Assembly: GCA_016703765.1 (NCBI GenBank)
Contig: JADJBL010000035.1
Span: 1-31,569, forward strand
DNA: 31,569 nucleotides
Source of the DNA: Saprospirales bacterium
Lineage (GTDB): Bacteria > Bacteroidota > Bacteroidia > Chitinophagales > Saprospiraceae
Direction of reading: 5' to 3'
Part shown: piece after piece, positions 3,397 through 31,569 of the stretch
How the letters are laid out: every line of letters starts with the position of its first letter
How positions within the stretch are numbered: position 1 is the stretch's first letter
Program-made: the position numbers and the translations under genes
Notes under the pieces: model-generated
Seen by the model: the letters and a program-made list of their open reading frames with translations, nothing else
The model's database searches: none
Told to the model about the DNA's origin: nothing

Positions 3397-3425
3397 GCTA
3401 ACGTTGGGCAAATGTGCTGTTATGC
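3397..3425 (-). repeat. Short, arm-less member of the palindromic element family
   Basis: On the minus strand this reads GCATAAC-A-GCACATTTGC-CCAAC-GTTAGC. It is the conserved ends of the larger elements (TAAC-A-GC and GC-NNAAC-GTTA) fused with no long arms or loop. It contains the stop codon of the DUF1801 gene (TAA, 3420-3422) and sits just before the beta-lactamase start. The 1-versus-5-nt asymmetric bulge next to the outer stem matches the full-size copies at 22.8-25.8 kb. Confidence 0.6.
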
Positions 3426-3866: not shown

Positions 3867-3920
3867 GATTGTTAAATTTTTAAATCAGGTAATGTTGTTT
3901 AAAGTTACAATTAATTTGGA

Positions 3921-4031
3921 GCTACCAGTAGCCGTTGGCGCATCTTCATACGAAGATAATACGGAAGCGGGAAGGAGTCAAGTCCTTTTTGCCAAGTAGC
4001 GGACCTCGGCCCGCCAATGGGCGGGTAGCTA
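3921..4031 (-). repeat. Palindromic gene-associated element (divergent subtype)
   Basis: Arms AGCTACCAGTAGCCGTTGGC (3920-3939) and the region CCGCCAATGGGCGGGTAGCT (4011-4030) are imperfect inverted repeats. The loop contains CTTCATACGAAG, then a GTCAAGTCCT...CAAGTAGCGG segment that is also found in the element at 29.07-29.20 kb. It lies between the lipoprotein gene (stop 4038) and DUF1801 (start 3866). The outer TAAC/GTTA stem of the main subtype is not well preserved here. Confidence 0.6.
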
Positions 4032-4037
4032 GTATCT

Positions 4038-5278
4038 TTATTTAGGCTTCCCTTCTGCGTCAGTATGTAGTATCAGGGGCCAGTAGTAATGTTCAAAATT
4101 TTGCAACTTTCCAGAGTAACCACAAATGATAAAATCATCTTCATCTGTTTTTATAATATCTAGTCCTACGTCATTTAGAATCGTACTACCATATTTTTCA
4201 TCCATTTTACTTCTCCTAACGGGTTGGTCCGAATTAATATGATGTCCACAATTTCAGCTCCAATTATTGGTTCATCGAGATGCTTTCGAGTTTCACCAAG
4301 GATCACATAGTCGCCATTATTTGCCTGGATAATAGAATGATTTAAGTCTTCTTCATCGGAACCTAATACTGCAGTCCAATCGAGATTCCCTTCTTCATCC
4401 ACCTTGAACAATAAAATATTATAATATGCTTCGTCTGCAAGACTCGTCGCCGTGATGGCAAACCCACCCTCATTTGACGTTATTATTTTATTGTAATATC
4501 CGCTTAATATGGAACCAAATGATTTTGACCATAGCACATCTCCATCATTATTAATTTTAACCAATAACAATTCGGCTTCACTATTACTACCGGTGCTATT
4601 TGAAGAAGTTCCTAATACGACAAATCCTTCGTCGACGACTTCCACAATCGACCAACCCCAATTATCCCCGGGAAGCTCAATTACTTTAGACCAACTTTCA
4701 ATTCCGGATCCATTGACTTTTGCAATAAAAAGATCACTTTGTGAATCTGGGTCGTTTTGGGTGATACCTCCCGTCAAGAGATATCCATTATCAGAGGTCG
4801 GGATGAAGGTTGTTATATGCTCGTCGTCAAGTGTTGTTCCTATGTAATTTTCCCATTCCTTTTCTCCATTGACATCGGTTTTCCATAAAAACCCATCATG
4901 ATTTAAAGATCCTCCGTGACTTTTAGCGCCAGCCAAAATATATCCACCATCCATAGATTCTAACACCTGTCTGGTCATTCCTTCGATATCTTGCATCCAT
5001 TCTAAATAAAAGAATTTATTTAGTTTTAGTAAAGTATAAGACGTAGATGGGTAATAAAATCCGGTCAAGATAAAACTATTATCCTGGAGTTTTTTGATAG
5101 AAGTTAATTCTGAAACATCTGCGTCAATGTAGTTAAATGAGTGCTCTGAAAAAGAAGCATTAAATTCAGGAGAAACACCCCATTTAATAGGAGGCGAGGG
5201 GTCGGTTTTTTCAACTTTTTCGCAACCCGACAAAATGTAAAGGGTTGCCAGCGAAAAGAAAAAAAATTTTGTTTTCAT
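4038..5278 (-). CDS. Secreted lipoprotein with beta-propeller-like repeats (one frameshift)
   Basis: Start ATG at 5278 gives MKTKFFFFSLATLYILSGC, a lipoprotein signal with lipobox LSGC, so the protein is probably anchored in the outer membrane. The mature part consists of repeats of about 50 residues, with GGYILAG-, GFLWKTDVNGEKEW- and DLFIAKVNGSGIESW-like units (aromatic Trp-G endings, DxDG turns). This pattern is common in Bacteroidota surface proteins and consistent with a beta-propeller. The frame closes early near 4175, but in the next frame a continuous extension (KKYGSTILNDVGLDIIKTDE, then ending AEGKPK) reaches TAA at 4038. An A-run near 4192 appears to lack one base, so about 413 aa is the likely full length. 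The first 150 bp are duplicated at 8.43-8.58 kb. Function unknown; binding or adhesion is a guess. Confidence 0.75.
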
Positions 5279-18776: not shown

Positions 18777-19349
18777 CTACTGCTTATCCACTGTGTAATT
18801 CAGTTCAGTTACCCCGCAAGTAAATTGTTGGGTAGTCAATAGTTTTAGTTTTATTTTGTCTTTGATGTCTACAAACAATGGAATGCCTTGTCCAAGAATA
18901 ATTGGATTAACAAATAGCCAGTAGCCGTCAATTAAGTTTTGTTGAATAAGTGAATGTGTTGCTGTCGGGCTGCCAAAAAGCAAGATGTCTTTACCTGCCT
19001 GTTGTTTTATTTCATTTATTCTGTCTGAAAGGTTGTCGCTAATAATTGTAGTGTTCGTCAAGTCCGCGTCTTTCATTGTTTTTGATAAAACAACCTTGTG
19101 AACTTTGCTATACCACTTTGAATGTTCAATGTCGTGCTTGGAGGCTGTTGGCTTGTCTCCAGCGGTAGGCCAGTAATTTTCCATCATCTGAAAAGTAACT
19201 CGTCCATATAATGCAGTGTCGCCTTCGCTTATCCGCTTACCGACAAAATCAAATATTTCTTCATCAACCTTAACCCAGTCCAACTCTCCGTTCAGCCCTG
19301 CTACAAAACCGTCAAGCGATATGTGCATAAATGAAATAATTTTTCTCAT
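18777..19349 (-). CDS. Dihydrofolate-reductase-like / RibD C-terminal domain protein
   Basis: A 190-aa complete protein: MRKIISFMHISLDGFVAG (the MxSLDGFxAG cofactor-loop motif), DTALYGRVTFQMMENYWP, HKVVLSKTMKD, KDILLFGSPTATHSLIQQNL and YWLFVNPIILGQGIPLF. These are the standard blocks of the YyaP/YwjB group within the RibD_C superfamily. Most members have no proven reaction; NADPH-dependent reduction is inferred from the fold. It lies 13 bp downstream of the VOC gene, probably in one transcript. It is the last AT-rich gene before the GC-rich operon; the M14 gene begins 36 bp further on. Confidence 0.9.
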   Translation of the reverse strand: MRKIISFMHISLDGFVAGLNGELDWVKVDEEIFDFVGKRISEGDTALYGRVTFQMMENYWPTAGDKPTASKHDIEHSKWYSKVHKVVLSKTMKDADLTNTTIISDNLSDRINEIKQQAGKDILLFGSPTATHSLIQQNLIDGYWLFVNPIILGQGIPLFVDIKDKIKLKLLTTQQFTCGVTELNYTVDKQ

Positions 19350-19362
19350 GTAGCGCTATTTT

Positions 19363-19731
19363 TTATTTCTTTGAGTGTAGTGCTATTTTATTTCCTTCCG
19401 TGTCGGCAATGTGGGCCATAAAGCCATTTGCACCAATCGAAGTTTTTGGCAAAAGAATTTTGCCACCTGCTGCCTCCACTTTAGAAAGAGGAACACTTAA
19501 ATCATCGCCACCGTTGAGATAAATTAAAGCTCCTGTCATGGAAGGTTGAAAACCTTCGCCTTCTACGATACCACCTGTTACACCGTTTTGCATGTCACCT
19601 GGCAAGATGCCATACTTGTATACAGGGTGCGGCATTTCCTGAATATCTGCACCTAATAGCGCTGCATAAAATGCTTTTGCTCTGTTGAAGTTATTCACTG
19701 GAATTTCAAACCAATTGATTGAATTTGTCAT
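19363..19731 (-). CDS. VOC (glyoxalase/bleomycin-resistance-like) superfamily protein
   Basis: A complete 122-aa protein with two beta-alpha-beta-beta-beta half-modules: INWFEIPVNNFNRAKAFYAA (N-terminal module, residues 5-24), GALIYLNGGDD (~67), VEAAGGKILLPKTSIGANGF and AHIADTEGNKIALHS (C-terminal module). This is the PhnB/YaeR-like subgroup of Bacteroidota; metal-binding residues cannot be assigned safely. It precedes the DHFR-like gene by 13 bp. Substrate unknown. Confidence 0.9.
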   Translation of the reverse strand: MTNSINWFEIPVNNFNRAKAFYAALLGADIQEMPHPVYKYGILPGDMQNGVTGGIVEGEGFQPSMTGALIYLNGGDDLSVPLSKVEAAGGKILLPKTSIGANGFMAHIADTEGNKIALHSKK

Positions 19732-19761
19732 GTCGTTTGTGTTGATTGTTTATTGATGAAA

Positions 19762-19842
19762 TTATTTTTTCTTCTTTTTTGATGACTTGGCTTTGCTGTT
19801 GAACATCAAACAAAGATTTATCCAGTAGTCAAATTCCTTATT
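19762..19842 (-). pseudogene. Short C-terminal coding remnant with lysine-rich tail
   Basis: In one frame the minus strand reads NKEFDYWINLCLMFNSKAK and a Lys-rich end before TAA at 19762, with no start codon. It looks like the tail of a small protein whose body has been lost, lying between DUF1569 and VOC. No family could be recognised. Confidence 0.35.
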
Positions 19843-19847
19843 GGGGA

Positions 19848-20314
19848 TTATAGTGCAAAGTCATCTACCTGCCTGCTTATGCCCCAAATCTGAACCTCAT
19901 CCATTCTTCACGATTCATTTTTCCAATTGCGGGATGTAAATCAGAAAGCTGACTCGCATTCAATAAATCTGAAAAACTCTTTTTCAAATTTACTTTTTCC
20001 GTTTCGAAATCTTCAACTGTGATGTTTGACTTTACAATATTTAATTCCGGAATGGCTGGGACCATTCTCATTTTACTAAACAAAGTTGGCAGCGGCATCC
20101 GTCCCTTAATCACCATTTTGAAAGCCCATTCTGTGAAAAAGTTTGAATGGTCTTTACCGCTGTATTTTCCTAATGCAAGGTCGTTTTCTAACTGCAAATG
20201 TTTGAGCATTTGAGCAGGTTTCATAATTCCCCAATTAGGTTTGGTATCTGCTTGCAAAAATTCAAGTCGCTGTAAAATCTTTTCGCTTGTTTCCGGGTCG
20301 AAGAATTTGTCCAT
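19848..20314 (-). CDS. DUF1569 (DinB-like) family protein, probably one frameshift near its end
   Basis: From ATG 20314: MDKFFDPETSEKILQRLEFL, then WGIMKPAQMLKHLQLENDLA, the family's MNAAQMLxHL-type helix, PTLFSKMRMVPAIPEL, and HPAIGKMNREEWMRF, the conserved HPxFGxMtxEEW block. The frame reaches TAA at 19877 after FGA, but in the next frame ISRQVDDFAL (resembling the family's HLxHHLxQF end) continues to TAA at 19848, so one base is probably missing near 19882. DUF1569 proteins are four-helix DinB-like proteins with no established reaction. A Bacteroidota -7 box TACCTTTG (20382-20389, minus strand) lies 68 bp upstream, next to a palindromic element. Confidence 0.8.
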
Positions 20315-20394: not shown

Positions 20395-20485
20395 TAACGT
20401 TTGGCAGCTACACGCAGGCAGGGCTTTTTAGCACTGAACTTCCTACGAAGCACGAAACCCCGCCTATAGCAAATGTGCTATTAGC
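20395..20485 (-). repeat. Palindromic gene-associated element
   Basis: Gene-strand reading: GCTAAT-A-GCACATTTGC, then GGCGGGG, loop GTGCTTCGTAGGAAGTTCAG, then GTAGCTGC-CAAAC-GTTA. It follows the propeller lipoprotein at 20497. The ends and loop match other copies, but the two arms pair poorly with one another outside CCCYGCC, as if two different elements had been combined. Confidence 0.7.
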
Positions 20486-20496
20486 AACAGTTGTTT

Positions 20497-21609
20497 TTAC
20501 TTCGTCCAAGGTTCTTTGTCTTTAGCGTTCATGAAATTATTTCCGTCATAAATACTTATTCCTTGCCAGGTGCCGAACCAAAGTTGACCTTTCTTATCCT
20601 CAAGTATACTTTGAACCACGTTTGTGGTTAATCCGTTTTCAGTTGTGAATTGGGTGAAATTTGCTCCATCGTATCGGTAAACTCCATAACCTTCAGCCGT
20701 AAACCAAATATTTCCTTGGCTGTCTTCATAAAAATTGTAAGTTTCTTCACCTGCAATAATACCATCCTTAGTGAAGTTAGTGTATGTTTTACCATCATAT
20801 TTACTCACACCACCATTAAAAGTACCAATCCAAATATTTCCTTGCTTGTCTTCTAAAATATCCGCGACATTATTGTCGGTAAGTCCATTTTTAGATGTTA
20901 AATGAATGAATTCGCCGCTTTTGTATTTGAAAATTCCATTTCCATCGGTAGCAAACCACATCGTTCCATTTCTATCTTCCAAAAATTTAAAAACCAATTT
21001 ATCAGAAAGCATAGGTTTGGGGTTTTCGACCTTTGTATCTGGCAATAAAAATGGTGTAAACTTTTTTCCATCAAAATGACTAACTCCGCCTATTGAACCA
21101 ACCCAAATGAGTCCACTTTTGTCAATGGTTAAACCCCAAATTTCCTCATCCTCACCTTGCAATCCTTCTTTTTTTGAAAATTTTGTAAATTTTTTACCAT
21201 CGTATTGTATGAGTCCTTCGGATGTTCCGAACCATAAATTACCTGCTTTATCTTCTACAATCTCTAAAACCCTAAAATGAGGACTGACATCTGCAATTGT
21301 CATTTTTTCAAGTGCTTGCCCATCGTAGCGGATAATCCCATTTCCATTTGTCCCAAACCAATAGTTCCCTTTTTTGTCTTGATACATTGTCCTTACAAAC
21401 TCCCTCACCATTCCATTTAAATTAGTGTGAATTTGCGGAAAGGTCGTGCTTTGATTTAAAATGGGTGGTTGGGTGTTTACTTCATTTTCTTTTTTATCAT
21501 TACCAGAGTTTTCGCTCACTTGTCCTGTGCAAGACGAGATTTGAAGTGTTAGAATAATTAAAATTAGATTTCTTGCGATGAATACTTTCTTACTTTCAAT
21601 GTTTGACAT
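20497..21609 (-). CDS. Stand-alone two-component-regulator-propeller lipoprotein A
   Basis: A 370-aa intact protein with lipoprotein signal ILIILTLQISSC. After a low-complexity linker it consists entirely of Reg_prop blades of about 42 residues: YQDKKGNYWFGTNGNGIIRY, VEDKAGNLWFGTSEGLIQYD, LEDRNGTMWFATDGNGIFKY, LEDKQGNIWIGTFNGGVSKY and LEDKKGQLWFGTWQGISIYD. In hybrid two-component systems such propellers form periplasmic sensor domains, but here there is no transmembrane histidine kinase or DNA-binding part. A role as a surface-anchored binding protein is inferred. It is followed and preceded by palindromic elements and is one of five paralogues within 11 kb. Confidence 0.9.
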   Translation of the reverse strand: MSNIESKKVFIARNLILIILTLQISSCTGQVSENSGNDKKENEVNTQPPILNQSTTFPQIHTNLNGMVREFVRTMYQDKKGNYWFGTNGNGIIRYDGQALEKMTIADVSPHFRVLEIVEDKAGNLWFGTSEGLIQYDGKKFTKFSKKEGLQGEDEEIWGLTIDKSGLIWVGSIGGVSHFDGKKFTPFLLPDTKVENPKPMLSDKLVFKFLEDRNGTMWFATDGNGIFKYKSGEFIHLTSKNGLTDNNVADILEDKQGNIWIGTFNGGVSKYDGKTYTNFTKDGIIAGEETYNFYEDSQGNIWFTAEGYGVYRYDGANFTQFTTENGLTTNVVQSILEDKKGQLWFGTWQGISIYDGNNFMNAKDKEPWTK

Positions 21610-21630
21610 ATTGTTGGGTTTTTAATTGTT

Positions 21631-21698
21631 GCTAACGTTTTGCAGCTACCCAAAGGTGGCGATTTTTTTTTATAGGTAAGTTGCCGCCACACAGGTAG
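21631..21698 (-). repeat. Palindromic element lacking its gene-proximal outer stem
   Basis: Plus strand: GCTAACGTTTTGCAGCTACC-CAAAGGTGGCG, a short T-rich loop, then GCCGCCACACAGGTAGA. The outer GTTA partner is absent and the element abuts the stop codon of propeller B (21701), suggesting a shortened copy. Confidence 0.65.
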
Positions 21699-21700
21699 AT

Positions 21701-22792
21701 TTAATTCCAAGGTCCATTCCGTGAAACATTGATGATTGAATCTCCTTGAAGTCGAAAAAGTCCTCCTGATAATCCTAACCACAGATTTCCTTTTTTGTCT
21801 TCCAGAATGCTTTGTATGCCATAACCATAAGGCATCAAGTCTGCTCGGTCTGTTTTACTGAATAAGGTAAAATCTTTTCCGTCATAGCGATATACCCCCA
21901 CGCCATTTGCGCCAATCCATATATTCCCTTTACTATCTTCATATATGGCATAGACCTCGTTTTTGCTGAGACCTTTAATTTCGGGAAAGTGAGTAAATGA
22001 TTTTCCGTCAAATTTGCTCAGACCACCATCTCCCGTTCTACCTGTTTTATCAGGATTGTCTCTTTCGACCACCCTGGAACCAAACCAAATATTCCCTTTC
22101 TTGTCTTCCTCGATCTCCTGAATGTTATTTGAAACAAGACCATCTTTCTTGGTGTATAGGGTAAATGATTGTCCATTGTATTTACAAACTCCATAGCCAT
22201 CTCGGCTAAACCAAATATTCCCCTGCTTGTCTTCAATGATTTCAGAAACCCAATGCATTGTTGATTGATAAGGCATTAATTCAACGTCAGGATTTGGAAG
22301 TGTGAAGGTTGAAAAAGTTGTCCCATTAAATTTGGAAACTCCATTCCAGGTTCCAACCCAAAGAATACCTTTTTTATCAATTAGCAACTCGGAAACCGTG
22401 TTGTTAACGAGCCCGTTTTTATCAGTAAAATTGATAAATGTTTTCCCGTCAAATTTTGAAAGCCCGTTGTGTGTGCCAAGCCAGATATTCCCCTGTTTGT
22501 CTTCGGCAAAACTTGTCACGGTATTTCCGATCAGTCCGTTTTCTGTTGTGAGATAGGTAAGGGCTTTTCCGTCAAATTTTGCCGCGCCATTATTTATTGT
22601 CCCAAACCACAAGTTTTTTTTTGAATCTTCAAATATCTCAACGACATATTCGTCAATCTGAGGAGCTTTTGTTTGACTTTGTTGTTCGATCTTTTTATTC
22701 TTCATGTTTGTCTTTGAATGACAAGAGGAAATCGTGGCAACAACCGACACTAAAAGTAGAGCACCTATTATTCTTAAATTGTAAACATCCAT
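21701..22792 (-). CDS. Stand-alone two-component-regulator-propeller lipoprotein B
   Basis: A 363-aa intact protein. MDVYNLRIIGALLLVSVVAT then ISSC forms the lipoprotein signal. Propeller blades follow in series: FEDSKKNLWFGTINNGAAKF, AEDKQGNIWLGTHNGLSKFD, LIDKKGILWVGTWNGVSKFN, IEDKQGNIWFSRDGYGVCKY, YEDSKGNIWIGANGVGVYRY and LEDKKGNLWLGLSGGLFRLQ, each with a DGKxFtxF(t) spacer. The blade sequences are close to paralogue A, suggesting tandem duplication followed by divergence. No kinase or effector domain is present. Location is probably the outer leaflet or periplasm. Confidence 0.9.
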   Translation of the reverse strand: MDVYNLRIIGALLLVSVVATISSCHSKTNMKNKKIEQQSQTKAPQIDEYVVEIFEDSKKNLWFGTINNGAAKFDGKALTYLTTENGLIGNTVTSFAEDKQGNIWLGTHNGLSKFDGKTFINFTDKNGLVNNTVSELLIDKKGILWVGTWNGVSKFNGTTFSTFTLPNPDVELMPYQSTMHWVSEIIEDKQGNIWFSRDGYGVCKYNGQSFTLYTKKDGLVSNNIQEIEEDKKGNIWFGSRVVERDNPDKTGRTGDGGLSKFDGKSFTHFPEIKGLSKNEVYAIYEDSKGNIWIGANGVGVYRYDGKDFTLFSKTDRADLMPYGYGIQSILEDKKGNLWLGLSGGLFRLQGDSIINVSRNGPWN

Positions 22793-22843
22793 TTAATTAG
22801 TCTTTTCTTTTTTATTAGTCGGTCTGTCTGCAGCAATTACCTG

Positions 22844-22960
22844 TAACGGTTTGCGACTTTGCGTTGTGGGGGATTTTTAGCACTAATGTTCATACGTAGC
22901 ACAAAGCACAAATGTTTCTACGAAGAACGTCCGCCCCCATAACGCAAAACCGCTGTTAGC
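22844..22960 (-). repeat. Palindromic gene-associated element
   Basis: Arms TTTGCGACTTTGCGTTGTGG and the reverse complement of CCATAACGCAAAACCGC pair over about 20 bp with few mismatches. Gene-strand ends are GCTAAC-A-GCGG and GTCGC-AAACC-GTTA. The loop carries ACGTTCTTCGTAGAAACATT and TTAGTGCTAAAAA. It follows propeller C and precedes propeller B. Confidence 0.8.
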
Positions 22961-23000
22961 TGCTGCCATATTTTTTGTTTGGTAGTATGTGGCTTTGGAT

Positions 23001-24149
23001 TTAATTGTCATATTGAGAAAATGTCGTAAAAGTTTTACCGTCAAACCGACTTAGTCCAAACCATTTTGTTCCAAACCACAAATTGCCGTTTTTATCTTTC
23101 AGAACACTCATCACTGCATTATTTACAAGTCCATCATTTTCTGTAAAGTTTTTAAATGTTTTGCCATCATAAAACCAAACTCCGATATCAGCAGTCGTAA
23201 TCCAAAAATTGTTTTTGTTGTCTTGCAGTATTGCCATTGCCCCACCACTGTTAAATCCTTCATTTCTTCCGATGCTTGTAAATGTTTTTCCGTTATAGCG
23301 GCAAATGCCGTGGTTTCTTGTCGCAAACCAAATATTTCCTAAATTATCTTCCGTCATTGAAAAAATCATATCGTCTGTGATATGGTCTTGCAATGGAGAA
23401 TAGGTGGTGCTTGGACTAATTTCGAAAGTACTCTGTGGATTGTTGAAGTTTCTTTTGTCTTGGTTTGCTTTATAATAGTCAGCAGAAGGAAGGAAGTTTT
23501 TAAAATTAATTCCGTCAAATCTCCATACGCCACCGCCATTCCAAGAGCTAAACCATAAATTTCCATTCTTATCTTGCAAAATGTCAAGGATAAGCTGATT
23601 ATTTTCTCCAAGATTGTATTCTTGTTTATTGCTGTTCAGAAAATTATCCAATGTTTTTCCATTGTAGCGATAAATTCCTTTACCCATTGTACCGAACCAT
23701 AGGTTTTCATCTTTGTCTTCTAACATACAAGTAATACTCAATGTGTCGGGAACAGGGAATTTTGTAAATGATTTACCGTCATATTTACATATTCCGTTGT
23801 TTGTCCCAATTAAAATATTTCCTGATTTGTCTTGAATTATTGCACTTACATTATTGCTGCATAAACCGTTTTTGGTAGTGAAGTTGGTAAATATTTTTCC
23901 ATCATAACGATAAGCTCCTTCTCCACTAATGCTAAACCACAAATTGCCGTCTTTGTCAAGAAGCTGGCAACCTACAACCTCGCTCTGTGTTCCCTGAGTC
24001 CGAACAATTTTTGGATGTTGTTCAGTTGTATCGGTTGAATTTATATTGTTTGTGGTCTTGCTTGTTGAAGTCTGTCCGTTACAAGAAGTAAAAAATATGA
24101 ACACTAACAGTAAAGAAATGATTGGGTTTTTGATTTTATACGTTGTCAT
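23001..24149 (-). CDS. Stand-alone two-component-regulator-propeller lipoprotein C
   Basis: A 382-aa intact protein; MTTYKIKNPIISLLLVFIFF then TSC is the lipoprotein signal. At least eight blades can be seen, including LLDKDGNLWFSISGEGAYRY, IQDKSGNILIGTNNGICKYD, LEDKDENLWFGTMGKGIYRY, LQDKNGNLWFSSWNGGGVWR, TEDNLGNIWFATRNHGICRY and LKDKNGNLWFGTKWFGLSRF. A roughly 45-residue insertion between the fifth and sixth blades (PSADYYKANQDKRNFNNPQ and following) distinguishes it from A and B. It lies between two complete palindromic elements, so gene plus element forms a compact unit of about 1.3 kb. Confidence 0.9.
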   Translation of the reverse strand: MTTYKIKNPIISLLLVFIFFTSCNGQTSTSKTTNNINSTDTTEQHPKIVRTQGTQSEVVGCQLLDKDGNLWFSISGEGAYRYDGKIFTNFTTKNGLCSNNVSAIIQDKSGNILIGTNNGICKYDGKSFTKFPVPDTLSITCMLEDKDENLWFGTMGKGIYRYNGKTLDNFLNSNKQEYNLGENNQLILDILQDKNGNLWFSSWNGGGVWRFDGINFKNFLPSADYYKANQDKRNFNNPQSTFEISPSTTYSPLQDHITDDMIFSMTEDNLGNIWFATRNHGICRYNGKTFTSIGRNEGFNSGGAMAILQDNKNNFWITTADIGVWFYDGKTFKNFTENDGLVNNAVMSVLKDKNGNLWFGTKWFGLSRFDGKTFTTFSQYDN

Positions 24150-24212
24150 TTGTCTGAATATTTTTGTTAGAGTTTTAAATTGTGTCTGGTTTGCAGGTGG
24201 TCGCTGATGGTT

Positions 24213-24335
24213 GCAGCTAACGGTTTTCGGGCTTGCCGTAGGCGGGGTTTAAGACCTACGGCTTGTCGCCAAGCACAAAGGTAAGTAGAAAAGTTCCATC
24301 GTCAACCCCGCTTAGGGCAAGCCGATGTTAGCTGC
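24213..24335 (-). repeat. Palindromic gene-associated element (best-paired copy)
   Basis: Plus strand begins GCAGCTAACGGTTTTCGGGC and ends GCAAGCCGATGTTAGCTGC. GGCTTGCCGTAGGCGGGG pairs with CCCCGCTTAGGGCAAGCC (16 of 18), and the outer GCAGCTAAC/GTTAGCTGC is perfect over 9 bp. The stop codon of the upstream lipoprotein gene lies in the proximal arm (24312-24314). TACCTTTG on the minus strand (24276-24283) in the loop fits a -7 promoter box. Confidence 0.85.
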
Positions 24336-24941
24336 CGTTTTTCTCATTTTGTCCGATGTGATTGTATACTGAAATCTGTCGTTTTCATATTCTTTAGCTT
24401 TTGTCAACTCAAAAACCTCTACATAGTCAACCTTGTCAATTTTGTAATAGCCTGTTGTCTTTAGTGATTTAACTACCTCGTCATTTTTTAGTTGTTTAAT
24501 GTCCTTGCTCAGAAGTCGTAGAAAGTTGTCAACTGCTGATGCGCTATCCTCTAAAGTAAAAAGCACTGAACAACTAAATGTTATGATTAGATTTTTGTCG
24601 GTCTCAATGTATAATGCGGACAGCCAGTCCTCCTCATTGTAATTAATAAACGGCTCGCCTAAATATTGAAAAACGTCTTTACCTGTAGAGTCAATTTTAT
24701 CGTCATCGTCAGCCATTCCAGCCCAACGCCAATCAATAATTTTATCACTTATCTTATAGTGTTGTCCGAGTGAGATTTTGTAAGTGTCGCTTTTGTAGTC
24801 AACCAGTGTTGGTTTTATTGTTGATGTCAGACTAACGGTTTTATGTCCGCCAGTTTCATTTGTTGTCTGTTCTTCTGTCTGTCCACAAGAGGTCAAAACA
24901 GTGAGGATAAAAGTTGTCCATATGAGTGAAAATTCTGTCAT
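24312..24941 (-). CDS. Uncharacterised lipoprotein ending inside a palindromic element
   Basis: A 209-aa protein starting MTEFSLIWTTFILTVLTSC, with lipobox LTSC and a Thr/Glu/Gln-rich linker. The mature part has no family I recognise: DYKSDTYKISLGQHYKISDK, an acidic WRWAGMADDDDKIDSTGKD stretch, ADDDDK-type loop, and a C-terminal KEYENDRFQYTITSDKM. A mixed alpha/beta fold is likely. The last codons (AANIGLP) and stop are read from the palindromic element, so the coding sequence has been joined to, or has evolved into, the element. This is the arrangement often seen for integron cassette genes. A single-gene unit between two elements. Confidence 0.8.
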   Translation of the reverse strand: MTEFSLIWTTFILTVLTSCGQTEEQTTNETGGHKTVSLTSTIKPTLVDYKSDTYKISLGQHYKISDKIIDWRWAGMADDDDKIDSTGKDVFQYLGEPFINYNEEDWLSALYIETDKNLIITFSCSVLFTLEDSASAVDNFLRLLSKDIKQLKNDEVVKSLKTTGYYKIDKVDYVEVFELTKAKEYENDRFQYTITSDKMRKTAANIGLP

Positions 24942-24961
24942 CAGTTGGTGTGTTTTAAATG

Positions 24962-25105
24962 GCAGCTAACGTTTTGCAGCTACCCGCAGATAGGGGCGAA
25001 TTAAAAAAGACACCTGCGAATCGTTATATTTTAGCATTAGAATATTTTATCCCACGAAAGGCAAACCCCCTATTTGAGGGTAGGTGCTGTTAGCGGTTAG
25101 GCGTT
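24962..25105 (-). repeat. Palindromic gene-associated element
   Basis: Arms GCAGCTACCCGCAGATAGGG and the reverse complement of CCCTATTTGAGGGTAGGTGC pair well. Gene-strand ends: CGCTAAC-A-GCACC and AGCTGC-AAAAC-GTTAGC. An extra GAACGCCTAACC lies outside the proximal end, resembling the GCCTAAC core of canonical attC sites. Its loop (about 95 nt) is AT-rich and least like the other copies. Confidence 0.8.
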
Positions 25106-25148
25106 CATTGCTTTTGCTGTTCATTTGTGTCAATTAGGTTTTGTTATT

Positions 25149-25586
25149 CTACTTTTTAAGCGTCCATAACCAAGCGTCACCAATTTCTTCGTCTTGAACA
25201 ATTTCTGTAAAAACAAAACCGTTTTTCTCTAATATTTTTGTCGAAGCGTTATGCTCAGGTGCAGTTTTCGCAGTAATAATTATGGTTGGGTCGTATTGTT
25301 GAGAAATTAAGACAAGTTCTTTACACGAAAACGAAGCAATTCCTTGTCCTTCGTATTCTTTGAATGTCCAATATGCTATTTCAACTTTTCCTTTTTTTGG
25401 TTGCCCTGTAAAACCACATGAGCCAACAATTTGATTATTTCTTATAACAAAATATCCTACCCAAGGCAAGTTATAACCGATTTTTGGATAATATTCCTCA
25501 TAGGACTTCAATAATAATTGGCAGTCATCTGAACTAAAAAAATTATTCGTCTTATCTAAATTTATTTCAATTACTTTCAATTCCAT
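25149..25586 (-). CDS. GNAT-family N-acetyltransferase
   Basis: A complete 145-aa protein. The acetyl-CoA-binding core is visible: VGYFVIRNNQIVGSCGFTGQ (beta strands 2-4, residues ~43-62), KGKVEIAYWTFKEYEGQGIA with the pyrophosphate-binding QGIA motif (variant of Q/RxxGxG/A), KELVLISQQY, and the motif-B region ILEKNGFVFTEIV. The closest group is RimJ/RimL-like or YjaB-like acetyltransferases; substrate unknown. It is a single-gene unit between two palindromic elements, and acetyltransferases are among the commonest cassette genes in integrons. Confidence 0.9.
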   Translation of the reverse strand: MELKVIEINLDKTNNFFSSDDCQLLLKSYEEYYPKIGYNLPWVGYFVIRNNQIVGSCGFTGQPKKGKVEIAYWTFKEYEGQGIASFSCKELVLISQQYDPTIIITAKTAPEHNASTKILEKNGFVFTEIVQDEEIGDAWLWTLKK

Positions 25587-25645
25587 TTTTTCAATTACTT
25601 TCTTGTCTGTTTATTTATGTCAGTGTAGTTCGCTACGCTTACCTA

Positions 25646-25779
25646 TAACGGTTTGCAGATTTGCGATGGGCGGGATTTTTACCACAAATGTTTATACGAA
25701 GAACGAATGTTTGATTAACCACAAAACTGTCATACGAAGCACTGAACCGCCAATTTCTTGAAGGTGCTGTTATGCGTTC
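25646..25779 (-). repeat. Palindromic gene-associated element, apparently hybrid
   Basis: The gene-proximal half (AACGCATAACAGCACC, TTCAAGAAATTGGCGGTTC) is almost identical to the element at 30.37-30.50 kb, but the distal arm (GCAGATTTGCGATGGGCGGG) does not pair with it. The loop contains ATACGAAGAACGAATGTTTG and CATACGAAGCACTGAAC, shared with the 30.4-kb copy. The ends keep TAAC-A-GC and GC-AAACC-GTTA. Confidence 0.75.
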
Positions 25780-25786
25780 GTATTTT

Positions 25787-26834
25787 TCACCAAGGTCCAT
25801 TCTTTGTAACATTTATAAATTTTTCATTTTCAAATCGATATGCTCCTTCAAACCCCACAAACCAAAGTCGTTTTTGCTGGTCTTCGTAAATTTGAAAAGT
25901 CAGCGGACCATAAATTTCCTTTTTCTATTCGATATTCAGTGAGTTTCTCACCACTTAATCTATATATACTACGTGAGCAATTAAACCAAATATCACCCTT
26001 ATAATCCACAATTATACTGCCTGTTCCTTTACTTTCTTCAAAATGCATTTCTGAAATATTGGTAAGGATATTCTCTTTGAGATGAAAAAGTCCTTTTGAA
26101 GTCGAAACCCAGAATCCACCTTTTTTGTCTTCAACTATTTTGCTAATAAAATTTGTTGGAACACCTACTTCGTCAGAAATATTTTTTAACTTTTTGTTTG
26201 TATATGAAAATAGACCCGCATTAGTACTGAACCAGATTGTTCCCTTACTATCTTCAAGAATACTATGAACCATTTTTGTACTTGATATAGCAAGTGTTGT
26301 ATCTTTCTTTCCTTCGGGTAGGTCAAATTTAGTGAACCTTTGTCCATCAAATATACAAGTTCCTTCTATTGTCCCAATCCAAACATTCCCATTGACATCC
26401 GTCTCTATACACCAAGTGCTATTACTTATTAAGCCATCTGATTCGTAATAATTGGTCACTGAACTACCATTAATACTGCTAATACCATGATGATGCGCAA
26501 ACCAAATTCTCCCAGCTTTATCTTCTGCAATGTCTTCTATGGTGATACCTTGGCCTGATTCACTTTTAAAACCATCAATATGAAGTAAAGAGTCCTCAGA
26601 TAATTTAAACACACCATTTTGAGTTCCAAACCAAATATTGCCCCTACTGTCTTGCAATATGGCAGGTATAACTCCACTTATCTGTTCCTTTAAGTTTGGA
26701 AATTGAATTGTTTGTTTTATTACGTTTTGTTTATCACCATTATTCGCTTGCCTATTGCAAGATGTCATAATAATACAAAGCGCAATTCCTGTAAACAATT
26801 TTATTCCGTGAAATGGTGTTTTCTCTTTTTTCAT
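25787..26834 (-). CDS. Stand-alone two-component-regulator-propeller lipoprotein D (one frameshift)
   Basis: ATG 26834: MKKEKTPFHGIKLFTGIALC then IIMTSC, a lipoprotein signal. Blades include LQDSRGNIWFGTQNGVFKLS, AEDKAGRIWFAHHHGISSIN, ETDVNGNVWIGTIEGTCIFD, LEDSKGTIWFSTNAGLFSYT and VEDKKGGFWVSTSKGLFHLK. The frame breaks near 25915 where one T seems extra (AATTTATGG versus AATTATGG in paralogue E). Reading on gives YGPLTFQIYEDQQKRLWFVG and a terminal NGPW with TGA at 25787, about 348 aa. It is closest to paralogue E at the window end, with similar 5' flank as well as coding sequence, so gene and flank were duplicated together. The downstream element begins 8 bp after the stop. Confidence 0.87.
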
Positions 26835-26858
26835 CGGGTTCTTATTTTATATGACGCA

Positions 26859-26988
26859 TAACGGTCAAGTATAAAAGCAGTAGCGAATTTACATGCACTT
26901 ACCTTTCCGAAAGCAAGATACTTAATTAAACACAAAAACGGGTTGAGTTCGCACCCAAACCGTTATTGCTTTTATACAATGTTGTAGC
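26859..26988 (-). repeat. Palindromic gene-associated element
   Basis: Outer arm GTATAAAAGCAGTAGCGAA (26869-26887) pairs with the reverse complement of the TTGCTTTTATAC segment near 26966-26977. Gene-strand ends are GCTACAAC-A-TTGTATAAAAG and TATACTTG-ACC-GTTATGCG. An AT-rich arm here replaces the GC-rich arms of most copies. It lies 7 bp after the NTF2-like gene stop. Confidence 0.7.
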
Positions 26989-26995
26989 GAGTTTT

Positions 26996-27496
26996 TTATT
27001 TTCTCGGCTCTGTCTTGTTAAACATATATCGGGCAATTTTCCATTCATTGTTCACTTCTTCAAAGACAAAGAGCTCTCTATTTGCCTCAGGAATTGTATC
27101 GCCCGTTGCATGAATAAGTGTAGTTCCTTTTGAACTTGTTACGGCAAATGCCATGTTTCCTTCCACCTGAATCTCTTCAATGAAGAATTCAATGCTTAGT
27201 TGAATTTGAGAAAAGACATATTCGTAAGATTTCAAGATGCCTTCAGAACCAATTCCTGATGGTGCTTCTGTTGGCATGAAAATCCCATCCTTTGTGTAAA
27301 GGGATTGAGCCAATGTTGCATCAGAGGTATTCAGTGACTTTTGATATTCACTTAGTAGTGCTTCTATTTTTTGTTTTTCTTGCTTTTCCATGATTTCTGA
27401 GTTTTCTTTTGAGTTGGTATTTGATTCTGTATCCTCTTTTTGATTGCATGAAACCATTATTCCAATGACCAATGCAGCTATAATAAATCGTTTCAT
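26996..27496 (-). CDS. NTF2/SnoaL-like (DUF4440-type) lipoprotein
   Basis: A 166-aa protein: MKRFIIAALVIGIMVSC is a lipoprotein signal, followed by an Asn/Glu/Lys-rich linker. The domain EALLSEYQKSLNTSDATLAQ, LYTKDGIFMPTEAP, SIEFFIEEIQVEGNMAFAVT and EANRELFVFEEVNNEWKIAR has the cone-shaped NTF2-like pattern, with W-KIARYMFN closing it. Members bind or isomerise small hydrophobic molecules; no catalytic dyad can be assigned. It starts 1 bp after the NmrA-like gene, so the two are co-transcribed, possibly serving a shared redox or stress response. Confidence 0.85.
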   Translation of the reverse strand: MKRFIIAALVIGIMVSCNQKEDTESNTNSKENSEIMEKQEKQKIEALLSEYQKSLNTSDATLAQSLYTKDGIFMPTEAPSGIGSEGILKSYEYVFSQIQLSIEFFIEEIQVEGNMAFAVTSSKGTTLIHATGDTIPEANRELFVFEEVNNEWKIARYMFNKTEPRK

Positions 27497-27497
27497 A

Positions 27498-28379
27498 TTA
27501 GTTTACGTTTTGTTTAATCCAATCATTCAGTGTGACGAAGTCTTCCGTTGCAATTTCCTTAGCTAATTGTATTCGCTCGTCAGCATTCTCCCCCATGTAT
27601 GTATGTGCCTCAAAATATGCTAACATCTGGGCAATTTCACTTGCTCCTTCAAAAAAGTTGGAGAACACTTCAGTAGGGACCTGGTTGAAGCTGTATGCCT
27701 TACCATTTGCCTTAAAAACTTCCAAGACATCATTGAAGCTGTTCAATTCGGTGGCCAATGATAAATAGCTTCCATTACTCACCTTTGCAGGATTTAGAAA
27801 CGCGCCTGCCACTACTTTGCCTAAGTCGCTAATGTCTGCCATGTGGATTACTTTCTTACTAGGGTCGATAGGTAATGTCCAACCATTAGAACCGTCTTGT
27901 TGTGTTTGTGGTCCCATTTGTCCTGTAAGATTTTGGAAATAGAAGGGAGGCTGAACAAACGTATAGTTTGCGAAACCCGCATTTTTCACCAATTCATCAA
28001 CTTTTGCTTTTCCCGTAAAATGAGGAACATCAAATTGTCCATTACTAATTTTCTCTACGTTTGGCAGTGTTGACCAAACGAAGTGATTCACATTTGCTTT
28101 TTTTGCAGCCTCAACAGCAATTTTTCCTTGTGCCAATTCATCTGCTCCTTCCCAAAAATTGGTTACCACAAATACACCATGAGCGTCTTTTAAGGCATTG
28201 GTTAATGATTCAAGGTCTGTTAAATCTCCTTGTACCACCTCATTAGCGCTGCCAACATATTTATCAGGGTTTCGTGTAATGGCTCTGACTTTAAAAGAAC
28301 CTGCTTTTATTAAGGCGTTAACTACGCCTTTACCCTGTAAACCAGTCGCACCAACAACCGCAATTATTTTCTTTTCCAT
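27498..28379 (-). CDS. NmrA-like NAD(P)-binding Rossmann-fold protein
   Basis: A complete 293-aa protein with N-terminal IIAVVGATGLQGKGVVNALI, the GxxGxxG dinucleotide-binding motif of NmrA/TMR-type atypical short-chain dehydrogenases. Next come FKVRAITRNPDK, VVQGDLTDLESL, HGVFVVTNFWEG and NVNHFVWSTLPN. The canonical Tyr-Lys catalytic pair is not evident, as in NmrA redox sensors, so a sensing or quinone-reductase-like role is more likely than a classical dehydrogenase. It is downstream of a Crp-like regulator and directly upstream of the NTF2-like lipoprotein. Frame intact. Confidence 0.9.
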   Translation of the reverse strand: MEKKIIAVVGATGLQGKGVVNALIKAGSFKVRAITRNPDKYVGSANEVVQGDLTDLESLTNALKDAHGVFVVTNFWEGADELAQGKIAVEAAKKANVNHFVWSTLPNVEKISNGQFDVPHFTGKAKVDELVKNAGFANYTFVQPPFYFQNLTGQMGPQTQQDGSNGWTLPIDPSKKVIHMADISDLGKVVAGAFLNPAKVSNGSYLSLATELNSFNDVLEVFKANGKAYSFNQVPTEVFSNFFEGASEIAQMLAYFEAHTYMGENADERIQLAKEIATEDFVTLNDWIKQNVN

Positions 28380-28473
28380 CTTTTATGTTTTTAAAGTTTA
28401 ATAACAGCACAAAGATGGAGGTGCTGAACGGCATTTACCTATAAGGTAGTTTAAGAAAGAACCTTAATGTAGA

Positions 28474-29055
28474 TTAAGATTTGGAGATATTCTTTCGGAT
28501 GGTGCTCAGAAACTCTGGGGTTACGCCTATATAGGAGGCAATTTGAACATTAGAGATTCGATTAAACAATTGTGGGTACTTTTTTGAAAATTCTAAATAT
28601 CGTTCTTCTGCGGTTGAGCTAATATTTTGAAGTATGCGATTCTGTAAGCTTACCATGGCATTTTCGGCAAGAACTCTAAAGATTCTATTGAATTTTGGAT
28701 AATCTACAAACAGTTTCCACTGATCTTCTTTTTTGATTTGGAGAATAACTGAGTTCTCAATAGCTTCTACGTTAAGTCGACTTGGTTATGCAGAATGGAA
28801 ACTGCCTATATCTCCGATCCACCAATTATCAATTGCAAACTGAAGGTTGTGTTCTTTCCCATTTGGATCTACCATGTACATTTTGAAACAACCTTCTACA
28901 ACAAAGGTGTTGTGTTTACACACATCTCCTTCCTGAAGAATAAATTGCCTGCGTTTAACTTTTCGCTCTTTGAAAACTTCTTCCACTACAGATTTTTCTC
29001 CCTCATCTAAAGGAAGAAAATTATTGAAATAGTCTATTAGTGGTTTTGTCGTCAT
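28474..29055 (-). pseudogene. Crp/Fnr-family regulator with an in-frame stop
   Basis: ATG 29055 begins MTTKPLIDYFNNFLPLDEGE; the cyclic-nucleotide-binding beta roll follows (RRQFILQEGDVCKHNTFVVE, GKEHNLQFAIDNWWIGDIGS). After FHSA a TAA (28786-28788) interrupts, then in the same frame PSRLNVEAIENSVILQIKKE, the dimer helix and the HTH end (NVQIASYIGVTPEFLSTIRK) complete a 193-codon gene. Relatives have HSGKPS here, so a Lys codon has probably become TAA, a substitution rather than an indel. The protein would lack its DNA-binding domain. Such Bacteroidota regulators often sit next to NmrA-like genes, as here. An internal restart at 28656 is possible but weak. Confidence 0.85.
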
Positions 29056-29070
29056 TTTTCAAATTCGCTA

Positions 29071-29195
29071 CAACGGTTGGCTACCCGCCGTTGGCGCGTT
29101 TTCGTACGAAACTTAAGGCAGAAGCAGGAATGTTTGGTCAAGTCCTATTTTTCAAGTAGCGGCCAGGTCCGCCAATGACAGCTAGCTGATGTTGC
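29071..29195 (-). repeat. Palindromic gene-associated element (subtype of the 3.9-kb copy)
   Basis: Distal end CAACGGTTGGCTACCCGCCG TTGGCGCG; proximal arm CGCCAATGACAGCTAGCTGA. The loop has GTTTTCGTACGAAAC and GTCAAGTCCTATTTTTCAAG TAGCGG, shared with 3921-4031. It lies after a small ORF and before the Crp-like gene. Confidence 0.65.
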
Positions 29196-29206
29196 TGTTT
29201 TTTTTC

Positions 29207-29404
29207 TTATTCCCTTAAAAGATTTTCGACTTGATAAATGACTAATTTTTTTTTGTCATGTCTCTTCCTTGTTTCTTTAAAAATTGCTTGACCGCTTTTT
29301 GTTATTTTAATTTCAATTTCATAATCCTTACCTTTCTCTTTTACAATTGATCTTTCAAACGGATTCCGATACACTTTAATAGTTAGCAAAATCCTTTCCA
29401 ACAC
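29207..29404 (-). CDS. Small orphan ORF (65 aa), possibly a fragment
   Basis: The frame from TTG 29404 (or GTG 29407) reads LERILLTIKVYRNPFERSIV then a charged Lys/Glu-rich domain EKGKDYEIEIKITKSGQAIF and a helical end VIYQVENLLRE. It is bounded on both sides by element-like sequences (29.07-29.20 and 29.79-29.87 kb). There is no ATG and no recognisable family; a stop lies just upstream of the start, so either it is a very small cassette gene or the remaining end of a larger one. Confidence 0.4.
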   Translation of the reverse strand: MLERILLTIKVYRNPFERSIVKEKGKDYEIEIKITKSGQAIFKETRKRHDKKKLVIYQVENLLRE

Positions 29405-29612
29405 TTACTGCTAGAACTTGCTGAAGGAATTAAGTCTGTTTTAAAAGTCGATCGTTTCCAAAAAATACTTTTACATATCACTTGGTCAAGCTTTGTTTCA
29501 AATTGAACCTACCGTTTGAAATTTTTCTCGACTTTGACAAATCTAGAGTTGATTGTCAAATATTATTTGCATTAAATCATTATGACTAGCCAGGAGAACC
29601 ATTTAAGTATCT

Positions 29613-29765
29613 TCAAGACCGGTATTTCGTCAGTGTCAAATTAACACTGTTGTCAACGTATCCGTGGAAAGCAACCGTAGGACCCATTTCATTAACATCT
29701 ATTTCGTTTGCACTTAAACCTCCCCAATTATTAAAAATACCATTAAAGAATAAGTGAACACCATT
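29613..29765 (-). pseudogene. Coding remnant without a start
   Basis: One minus-strand frame is open for about 50 codons, GVHLFFNGIFNNWGGLSANE, IDVNEMGPTVAFHGYVDN and a TLTKYRS end at TGA 29613. The sequence looks protein-like but no family is recognised and it has no start codon. The rest of 29405-29790 shows no other coding signal. Confidence 0.35.
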
Positions 29766-29790
29766 TTAGTTATTTCCAGGCAACGATAAG

Positions 29791-29874
29791 CTATGCCAAC
29801 GTGCGACAAATTCGCCAGAGCGTGAGCTATACAGCTTGGATAGCTGGCATGTGTGTGTTAGATTGTTGGCATAG
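29791..29874 (-). repeat. Short palindromic element with perfect ends
   Basis: CTATGCCAAC (29791-29800) and GTTGGCATAG (29865-29874) are a perfect 10-bp inverted repeat. Inside, GCGACAAATTCGCC and GAGCTATACAGCTTGGATAG CT suggest a secondary stem. It follows the orphan ORF stop by about 5 bp. The ends are like attC R boxes (GCCAAC/GTTGGC) but the arms differ from the main family. Confidence 0.6.
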
Positions 29875-29879
29875 TATTC

Positions 29880-30353
29880 TTATCTAAGCCGTCTGACTTT
29901 TGCAGTTCCCCAACCAATACCAAATTGAATCATTTGCATTTGCATTGTAAATCCGGACGCATTTTTACCAGTTGAGGCCGCCTTTATCTTTGTTTGTCTT
30001 CTTATCAAAAGTTGATGAACTAAGTCGATAATTTTTTGAGGGACATTCCGTCCTTGTTGACAACTGAAAACAATTATTTCAAGTGCCCGCCCCAATTTCT
30101 TGTTACTTTCTGATGAAACTCCAAATTGAATTAACATTATAATGTTGTCGAGTTGCATCTTCTGATAATATAACTCCATTAATTTTGCTTTGTAATGGAT
30201 TAGGTGTCACTTTGGCAGTTCCAATGAAATATTAGCGCCTTGTACTTGTCCAGAGTCCAAAACACCAATGAATTTGTGTCGATAAAGCAAATTAGTCCAA
30301 AAATTGCTGTTTAAAACAAAGAGAACTTCATTAAGATTCTTAACATTTTTCAT
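29880..30353 (-). CDS. Orphan cassette-like gene with an internal in-frame TGA
   Basis: From ATG 30353 the frame reads MKNVKNLNEVLFVLNSNFWT, then RHKFIGVLDSGQVQGAN to ISLELPK and TGA at 30207-30209. It stays open in the same frame to TGA/TAA-equivalent stop at 29880, via MELYYQKMQLDNIIMLIQFG, GRALEIIVFSCQQGRNVPQK and IIDLVHQLLIRRQTK. The second part (99 aa from ATG 30179) is mostly helical and basic at the end. Whether this is one broken 157-codon gene or two small genes is unclear. It is flanked tightly by a palindromic element on each side, which fits a gene-plus-element unit. No family recognised. Confidence 0.45.
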
Positions 30354-30370
30354 TTTGTTTTAATTGCTTA

Positions 30371-30503
30371 CAACGGTTTGCAGCTACAAGAAGTTGGCGA
30401 TTTCCACCACTAAACTTCATGCCAAGGACGAATGTTTGATACAACCACAAAGTTTCATCGAAGCACTGAACCGCCAATTTCTTGTAGGTGCTGTTATGCG
30501 TTC
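30371..30503 (-). repeat. Palindromic gene-associated element
   Basis: GCAGCTACAAGAAGTTGGCG (30381-30400) and CGCCAATTTCTTGTAGGTGC (30472-30491) pair over 20 bp with about 2 mismatches. Gene-strand ends: AACGCATAAC-A-GCACC and AGCTGC-AAACC-GTTG. The loop holds GTGCTTCGATGAAACTTTGT. It starts 7 bp after the stop of propeller E. Confidence 0.85.
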
Positions 30504-30509
30504 GTTTTT

Positions 30510-31553
30510 TTACCAGGGCCCATTACGTTTAATATTAATAAACCTGCTATTTTCATAACGATATGCTCCACCATATCCCACAAACCAAAGTCGACTATGC
30601 TGGTCTTCGTAAATTTGAAAAGTCAGCGGACCATAATTTCCTTCTGCTATTCGATACTCTGAGAGTTTTTCACCATTTAATCTGTATATGCTGCGAGAAC
30701 AAGTGAACCAAACATCAGCTTTCGAATCAACAATTATACTTCCTGTTCCTTTACTTTCTTTAAAATGCAATTCCGAAATGTTGGTAAGACTATTCCCTGG
30801 AGATGAAAGAAGGCCCTTTGAAGTAGAAATCCAGAAACCACCTTTTTTGTCTTCAATTATTTTGCTAATAAAATTATTTATAATCCCCAATTCAGCAGAT
30901 ATGTTTTTTAACTCTTTATTTGTATATGAGAATAACCCTGCATTAGTGCATAACCAAATTGTACCCATACTATCTTTAAGTATACTATGAATCATTTTTG
31001 TACTTGATATACCAACTGTTGTATCTTTCCTCCCTTCGGGCAGTGCGAATTTAGTGAAACCTTGTCCATTAAATATGCAAACTCCTTCTATTGTCCCGAT
31101 CCAAACATTCCCTTTAATATCAGTTTCAATGCACCAAACATCATTGCTGATCAAGCCATCTGATTTGTAATAATTGGTCACTGATGTGCCATCAATACTA
31201 CTAATTCCATCACTATGCCCAAACCAAATTCTCCCATCTTTATCTTCTGCAATGTCTTTATCTTGACGCCTTTCCTGATTCACTTTTAATGCTATCAATA
31301 TGAATTAATGAATCGCCAGTTAGTTTAAACGCACCATTTTGTGTGCCAAACCAAATATTACCTTTACTGTCGTGGAATATTGTTCTTACTACATCACTAA
31401 TCTGATTGTTAAAATTCGGAAGTTGAATTGTTCCTTTCTGTTATTATGTTTTTATCTCCATTATTCGCTTGCCCATTACACGAAGTCAGAATAAAACAGA
31501 GCGCAATTTCTGTAAATAATTTTATTCCGTGAAATGGTGTTTTCTTTTTTCAT
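30510..31553 (-). CDS. Stand-alone two-component-regulator-propeller lipoprotein E (three disruptions near its start)
   Basis: The start ATG at 31553 aligns with paralogue D, but the frame is broken three times: about two bases missing near 31540, one extra A near 31433 (GGAACAATT), and one G missing near 31278. Stitched together the N-terminus is a lipoprotein signal (HGIKLFTEIALCFILTSC) followed by FHDSKGNIWFGTQNGAFKLT. From 31298 the frame is continuous: AEDKDGRIWFGHSDGISSID, ETDIKGNVWIGTIEGVCIFN, LKDSMGTIWLCTNAGLFSYT, IEDKKGGFWISTSKGLLSSP and YEDQHSRLWFVGYGGAYRYE, ending RNGPW. Length would be about 347 aa. The 5' flank resembles that of D. The window ends 16 bp upstream. Confidence 0.82.
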
Positions 31554-31569
31554 TGAGTTCTTATTTTAT

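Follow-up and report, generated by a model that had tools for sequence, protein, structure and literature searches.

Palindromes and genes in the window

The window analyzed here is the whole 31,569-nucleotide stretch of a Saprospirales bacterium contig (JADJBL010000035.1, positions 1–31,569). Nine related palindromes lie in its region 20395–30496, all on the + strand, and each directly follows a gene or short operon on the − strand (Table 1). Domains of SusD, TonB-dependent receptor and Por-sorting type, found in other parts of the window, suggest a member of the Bacteroidota. We interpret the palindromes, with a probability of roughly 0.9, as attC-like sites of an integron-like gene-capture system, and the window would, with much the same confidence, be a recombinase-free piece of a sedentary integron-type cassette array. 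An earlier note on this DNA had read the region as an array resembling those of the Vibrio cholerae repeat (VCR), with attC sites that depart from the textbook form, and this interpretation is supported by the results below.

The kinship of the nine copies is real. Five of them are among the 72 rows of the covariance model R1 (see below) and match it by construction, while the other four are independent of the model and still match. The note overstates the case in saying that a palindrome follows nearly every gene: no element separates the three genes at 18777–20314, and 26985–29070 holds about three genes, the third region of which resembles a broken cyclic-nucleotide-binding regulator (by eye only). 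No long gene is evident at 29195–30370 in the open reading frame (ORF) list. The spacing of 5 nt against 1 nt inside the TAAC and GTTA ends is visible in the window copies as described; in the other 67 rows of the alignment it was fixed by the search pattern and hence gives no independent evidence. Site 20395 ends in ATTA where others have GTTA. The window has 10 occurrences of the word AACGGTTTGC (at most one mismatch) against 2.9 expected, a count reached in 0 of 100 shuffles, and two of the 10 lie far outside the nine copies. Two weak − strand R1 matches mirror the palindromes at 30371 and 22844, and we make no claim for two further weak matches at 3399 and 8637 (E 0.75 and 0.31).

Two side observations concern relatives of these copies. 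The window cassettes 25640–26858 and 30364–31569 share 81.5% identity over 1.2 kb and represent an older duplication, and site 25646, despite its mismatched arms, has a right half similar to that of site 30371. A further palindrome at 3920–4040, below the reach of R1, is similar by eye to the 29071 copy (GCCGTTGGCGC...GCCAATGGGCGGGTAGC).

Table 1. Predicted attC-like sites and cassette genes of the window
Feature	Position	Strand	Basis and remarks
attC-like site	20395..20483	+	R1 42.3 bits, outside training set; closes cassette with gene 20497–21609
Cassette gene, Reg_prop beta-propeller protein	20497..21609	−	Pfam PF07494 1.4e-38
attC-like site, right half degenerate or deleted	21633..21689	+	R1 19.3 bits, E 0.013, outside training set; left end GCTAACGTTTTGCAGCTACC intact
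Cassette gene, 363 aa, beta-propeller-like by eye only	21701..22792	−	ORF list
attC-like site	22844..22958	+	R1 100.2 bits, within training set
Cassette gene, Reg_prop beta-propeller protein	23001..24149	−	PF07494 3.4e-34
attC-like site	24218..24330	+	R1 61.2 bits, within training set
Cassette gene, 209 aa, stop falls inside own site	24312..24941	−	No Pfam match at 1e-3
attC-like site	24967..25092	+	R1 73.9 bits, within training set
Cassette gene, GNAT acetyltransferase	25149..25586	−	PF13302 2.1e-12
attC-like site, arms match poorly (chimera-like in fold)	25646..25772	+	R1 98.3 bits, within training set
Cassette gene	25848..26834	−	ORF list; cassette is a duplicate of 30364–31569
attC-like site ending GTTG	26859..26984	+	R1 31.3 bits (match at 26872), outside training set
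Multi-gene cassette: DUF4440/SnoaL-like, NmrA-like, third region	26996..29055	−	PF14534 2.3e-8, PF05368 1.2e-60
attC-like site ending GTTG	29071..29194	+	R1 31.5 bits, outside training set
attC-like site	30371..30496	+	R1 119.4 bits, within training set
Cassette gene, Reg_prop beta-propeller; cassette extends beyond window end	30510..31298	−	PF07494 1.6e-20

Fold of the sites and limits of the cassette

A first pattern derived from the window copies, allowing 98–128 nt, was scanned over the genome collection and matched at least 120 stretches. The 80 titled matches listed comprise 73 from Bacteroidota, three from Ignavibacteria and four others (L008, L023, L052 and L072), and 126 of 128 matches measure 125–128 nt, at the upper limit of the pattern. 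Alignment A1 and model R1 were built from 67 non-redundant locus copies and five window copies. The intact site reads YAACG-KTTT-GC...GC-N-GTTR on the + strand of the window, and the 599 detected sites have length quartiles of 125, 126 and 127 nt (range 106–142). The fold is apparent from covariation: both sides change in 14 of the 16 pairs of the inner stem, and 93.5% of cells are paired, compared with 71.0% in shuffled and 33–52% in slid alignments. The site ends and the first and outermost stem bases were fixed by the search pattern, and the 12 pairs at columns 19–31 were free. In the L stem of R1, columns 16/132 and 17/131 remain unpaired, and agreement at R-stem position 7 is 7%; this geometry is possibly unlike that of attC in integrons, which has two extrahelical bases on one side of the folded strand. 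The site is an imperfect palindrome that keeps the GTT of the crossover, while the full canonical core GTTRRRY is found in 29/316 sites, about the chance level of 1 in 8, so the departure from textbook attC stands. The YAAC and GTTR ends were themselves required for site counting.

In integrons, the first bases of a cassette pair with the start of its own attC in the circle, and the two ends of a site in the array come from different cassettes. Among 316 distinct units, the triplet next to GTTR and YAAC is complementary within the unit in 227 and within the element in 33; the shuffled control for units has a mean of 21.7 and a maximum of 41 in 10,000. The difference persists when homologous units are removed (192 versus 28 of 252) and when the largest array is left out (103 versus 19 of 149). 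This across-gene pairing of the flanks fits cassette ends that meet in a circle. Agreement within units is raised at positions 1–6, fails at 7 (0.07) and is raised again at 8–11, which suggests an R stem that, in the circular form of a cassette, would be extended and interrupted by a single conserved mismatch. For the R of GTTR, agreement is 0.89 within units, 0.66 within elements and 0.60 after shuffling; this base follows the unit, which places the predicted exchange 5′ of R, inside GTT.

The same signature is seen in the window in our own reading of the flanks, where five or more of six bases match in five of the seven neighbour pairs that can be tested (20395/21633, 22844/24218, 24218/24967, 25646/26859 and 26859/29071; 21633/22844 is untestable). 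For example, the right flank GCAACA of site 20395 is complementary to the left flank of the next site, and GTTG-TAGCGA of site 26859 to TCGCTA-CAAC of the next. The automatic unit list holds five window units, two with an agreeing triplet, and misses sites 20395, 21633 and 26859.

The largest array, on the chromosome behind L054 (G012, Bacteroidota bacterium SSA2), spans positions 3,475,742–3,982,497, about 507 kb, with 249 detected sites. All 249 are on one strand and none on the other, so there should be few false matches, and in 201/220 cassettes the longest ORF runs antisense to the strand of the site. All 53 loci with three or more elements, some of them overlapping, likewise carry them on one strand. 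Within the largest array, 61 pairs of duplicate cassettes (at least 94% identity) were compared. The own site, taken as the same at 85% identity or more, is kept in 61/61 pairs, a level reached by 12 of 200 quasi-random site pairs, and both neighbours differ in 48/61. Upstream of the duplicates, identity in 39/61 stops 5–12 nt into the next site, counted from the beginning of its YAACG; it runs for 20 nt or more in 22/61, compared with 641/2000 random site pairs, and the upstream site is thus no more alike than by chance. On the other side, identity stops at YAAC in 10 of 12 inspected pairs. Such single-cassette copies with exact ends are, at the level of sequence, the expected trace of site-specific excision and reinsertion. 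Immobile units, which would have spoken against the earlier note, are not what is seen: cassettes are copied and moved one at a time, each gene together with its own site and with YAAC and GTTR as the ends, in keeping with a VCR-like array.

The cassette contents are a side observation. Among the cassette ORFs of the 507-kb array (L124–L149, L121), 82 were searched against Pfam and matched 33 families, rve in seven ORFs and each of the others in five or fewer, including glyoxalase, GNAT, HepT, ParE, Imm42 and MerC. One 20-nt cassette start (TCCTACCATTGGCTATAACG, site strand) stands beside different sites in L093, L115 and L117, which suggests a cassette common to several genomes.

Ordinary intrinsic terminators or mRNA 3′ stabilizers ending each gene would also sit directly after stop codons and fold as hairpins, and the covariation fits RNA as well as DNA. 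However, terminators predict neither the pairing across the gene, outside the hairpin, that 227/316 units have, nor the relocation of gene and hairpin with exact ends, nor the linked recombinase and attI-like junction described below; we regard them as a very improbable explanation, although the elements may have a side role in termination.

A linked recombinase and its attI-like junction

The attC-like reading was extended to other genomes with R1. Matches were found in 123 of the 247 genomes of the G012 (Bacteroidota) phylum sample, in 147/198 genomes of one class inside that phylum and in 2/149 genomes of another phylum, each sample including a seed genome known to carry the element. Searches over more than 40 genomes used stricter filters and scored few candidates, so these counts are lower bounds. 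The integron-like system appears to be common among Bacteroidota. Element matches also occur in two genomes that are not part of the phylum sample (one at G530:C1:2151595-2151720 and four in G270), through transfer or contamination.

A Bacteroidota-type tyrosine recombinase, labelled BactInt here and called at a cut-off of 1e-50, is linked to the arrays. Elements occur in 74/83 BactInt-positive genomes compared with 49/164 negative ones (Fisher 5.6e-20). Among 42 mapped recombinase loci, 38 have an element, and in 37 of these the recombinase is 5′ of the cassette genes. Cultured Kaistella palustris and Flavobacterium lotistagni are among the organisms that have arrays with a recombinase (L150 and L160). 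The earlier description of the array as integrase-less holds within the 31.6 kb and does not extend to related genomes, in which arrays begin with the recombinase and an attI-like site. For the window, the gene strand points to an array start beyond position 31569, and a recombinase presumably is, or once was, encoded in its own genome.

An insertion of cassette 1 beside the recombinase should have left a second copy of the first site's flank there, in complementary form. Such a copy is present towards the recombinase in 34 of 37 loci (at most one mismatch in seven), compared with 3.5 expected from shuffled flanks. The putative attI core is AACTNNTTTATA, with the pattern YAACT(C)(G)TTTATA...GC in 25 hand-selected sites of the 34. 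After AAC, 24 of these 25 have T (AACT), where attC has G (AACG); attI and attC would thus have little in common beyond YAAC/GTTR. In 18 of the 31 codirectional matching loci, 70–125 nt separate the match from the point where the recombinase frame ends.

The spacing between GKGxKDR and HxLRH is 58 residues in all 75 measurable sequences of 120 listed BactInts and 59–61 in the three measurable of 31 locus BactInts, compared with 100 residues (98 in one) in all 117 measurable of 120 IntIs. Judged by this spacing, BactInt is without the IntI-specific insertion. It scores 187 bits against TIGR02249, for which the cut-off is 265. In the tree, 20 BactInt rows (94/96) and seven IntI rows (98/98) form separate clades, while a joint BactInt and IntI clade is neither shown nor rejected (approximately unbiased test, p-AU 0.463). 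By Foldseek E-value the integron integrase 2a3v is the closest match, and XerA (5hxy) is the best by VIA-align Z (22.9, root-mean-square deviation 13.8, 254 aligned). An extra N-terminal domain (HARP/DUF5710-like) is frequent in BactInts.

Could these be ordinary IntI integrons with merely divergent sites, BactInt being a bystander? The GTT crossover and the cassette logic are the same, the Foldseek result leans that way, and IntI is present in a few relatives (G057 and G272). However, canonical IntI exceeds the TIGR02249 cut-off in 1/198 genomes of the class, whereas elements are present in 147, and BactInt stands at the array ends, lacks the insertion and forms a clade apart; we give this explanation very little weight. 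As to the two relatives, IntI is found at L231 (G057) and L232 (G272); G057 is in the Bacteroidota samples and had no R1 match in the phylum search, and G272 has both IntI and an element (L047). Least credible of all is a family of repetitive extragenic palindromic or miniature inverted-repeat transposable element (MITE) type, mobilized in trans by a transposase and simply located between genes: the copies are many, dispersed and MITE-like in size, and rve-type transposase ORFs are found in 7/82 scanned large-array cassettes, but the gene is accompanied by its own element in every duplicate pair (0/61 with a different own site; no wider search was made), the elements point one way in 53/53 loci, and no Rfam family matches at gathering score; the earlier note had named a hit to a known family of this kind as an outcome that would speak against it.

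Several observations weigh against the integron-type reading. A tblastn search with one recombinase found none in the window, and two of the seven testable pairs there (24967/25646 and 29071/30371) are without the signature. In the largest array, 24 of 248 gaps exceed 4 kb, and its chromosome is a metagenome assembly with runs of N and indel-type differences. Elements are carried by 49/164 BactInt-negative genomes, and 9/83 positive genomes have no element match; the BactInt cut-off is also passed by 5/149 genomes of the other phylum (best 2.7e-70), with elements in two of those 149. The recombinase is on the wrong side at L210 (1/38), and four of the 42 loci have no element (L205, L206, L216 and L217). 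Five attI matches are 776–3787 nt from the recombinase (L122, L213, L214, L220 and L222) and one is inside its open frame (L226); these six may be missed attC sites or unrelated. There is no attI match at L207, L224 and L230, and L218, L219 and L225 match without the attI core.

Two further sets of sequences were noticed. First, G011 (L154–L156 and other places) has about a dozen recombinase matches beside elements, with most frames of 224 residues or fewer and the L155 frame split into overlapping pieces (profile 81–167 and 163–363), which we read as insertion-sequence-like multiplication of a recombinase-carrying unit. Second, at least 120 IMG/VR contig stretches (L242–L361) have the site pattern; among the 120 listed, 51 have two or more elements and 23 have three to seven (e.g. 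L257, L302 in a 362-kb contig, and L312), and four encode a BactInt relative (L252, L279, L312 and L341). The arrays may be carried by phages, or the contigs may be host DNA filed as viral. Six loci in viral contigs (L255, L261, L265, L270, L273 and L320) have a shorter class of site, 98 nt long (the lower limit of the pattern), with nearly the same inner sequence.

Proposed mechanism and relation to known systems

We propose, at the confidence given at the outset, an integron-type system that has a recombinase and an insertion site of its own and goes unrecognized by standard definitions of the integron. The unit would be one gene, sometimes a short operon, with its own downstream attC-like site of about 126 nt; on the gene strand the cassette would read TTR-XYZ ... 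gene ... X′Y′Z′-YAAC-A-GC ... GC-AAAMC-G. One strand of the site is predicted to fold into an imperfect hairpin, the L and R stems of which would be bound by BactInt. BactInt would then cross over within GTT and excise cassettes as circles, which would be reinserted at attI beside the BactInt gene or at other attC sites. The fold, the boundaries of the units, the duplication of single cassettes with exact ends, the linkage of the recombinase and the junction of attI with cassette 1 are visible in the sequences, whereas the catalysis, the circular intermediate and the strand used are what we infer from these traces. Because BactInt is without the IntI-specific domain and outside the IntI clade, and 29/316 sites fit GTTRRRY, the system would be a second integron lineage, functionally integron-like.

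A bolder proposal, which we put forward tentatively and consider rather less probable than its opposite, is that the integron of the Bacteroidota arose separately from IntI. Folded-hairpin cassettes would have been adopted by a Xer-type recombinase lacking the IntI clamp, aided in many members by the HARP/DUF5710-like N-terminal domain, perhaps a junction or single-strand binder, and the resulting system would be one of the main means of gene capture in the phylum, with arrays of up to half a megabase. Tools would have missed it because the integrase profile and the attC consensus both differ. A literature search of partial coverage, preprints not covered, found no description of such a system.

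Bacteroidota are listed among the integron-bearing phyla in the portions of two reviews that were available (PMC8618304, PMC9668308). Complete integrons are described as rare: In0 was at first the only one, and one more was later reported from Salinibacter ruber M1, apart from those of Chlorobi and Ignavibacteriae (available portion of PMC9024848). The element counts of 123/247 and 147/198 sampled genomes, and one array longer than the Vibrio paradigm, contrast with this rarity. If the proposed system is true, it adds a large pool of mobile genes, mostly of unknown function. The way in which a tyrosine recombinase can use folded attC-like sites without the IntI-specific insertion, which is called essential for integron function in the available part of PMC8138268, would also become open to experiment. 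The same part describes an integron-like tyrosine recombinase subgroup in which the insertion is incompletely conserved, and BactInt may belong to this subgroup; unlike here, no cassette array, attC or attI is assigned to insertion-less members in that part.

Archaeal XerA and other Xer recombinases share the core-binding and catalytic domains with BactInt. Xer recombinases use dif-type sites, and we know of no cassette arrays associated with them. The window resembles clusters of attC sites lacking integron integrases (CALIN) as a recombinase-free site cluster, as do the 49/164 recombinase-negative genomes with elements, but the sites here are without the published core consensus. The closest likeness is to sedentary chromosomal integrons, such as the Vibrio superintegron with its VCR attC sites and IntI: both have one-way arrays of gene plus hairpin site, a GTT crossover and attI beside a tyrosine recombinase. 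Integron cassettes also have ends complementary to each other, as the units here do. Unlike in Vibrio, the recombinase forms a separate clade, is without the IntI insertion and often has an extra N-terminal domain; the core is GTTR-NNN and not GTTRRRY, with a 1-nt versus 5-nt spacer and conserved unpaired positions; and the attI core is distinct, with sites of about 126 nt. The superintegron of V. cholerae N16961 is given as 126 kb with 179 cassettes in the available part of PMC11551772, compared with about 507 kb and 249 detected sites in the largest array found here.

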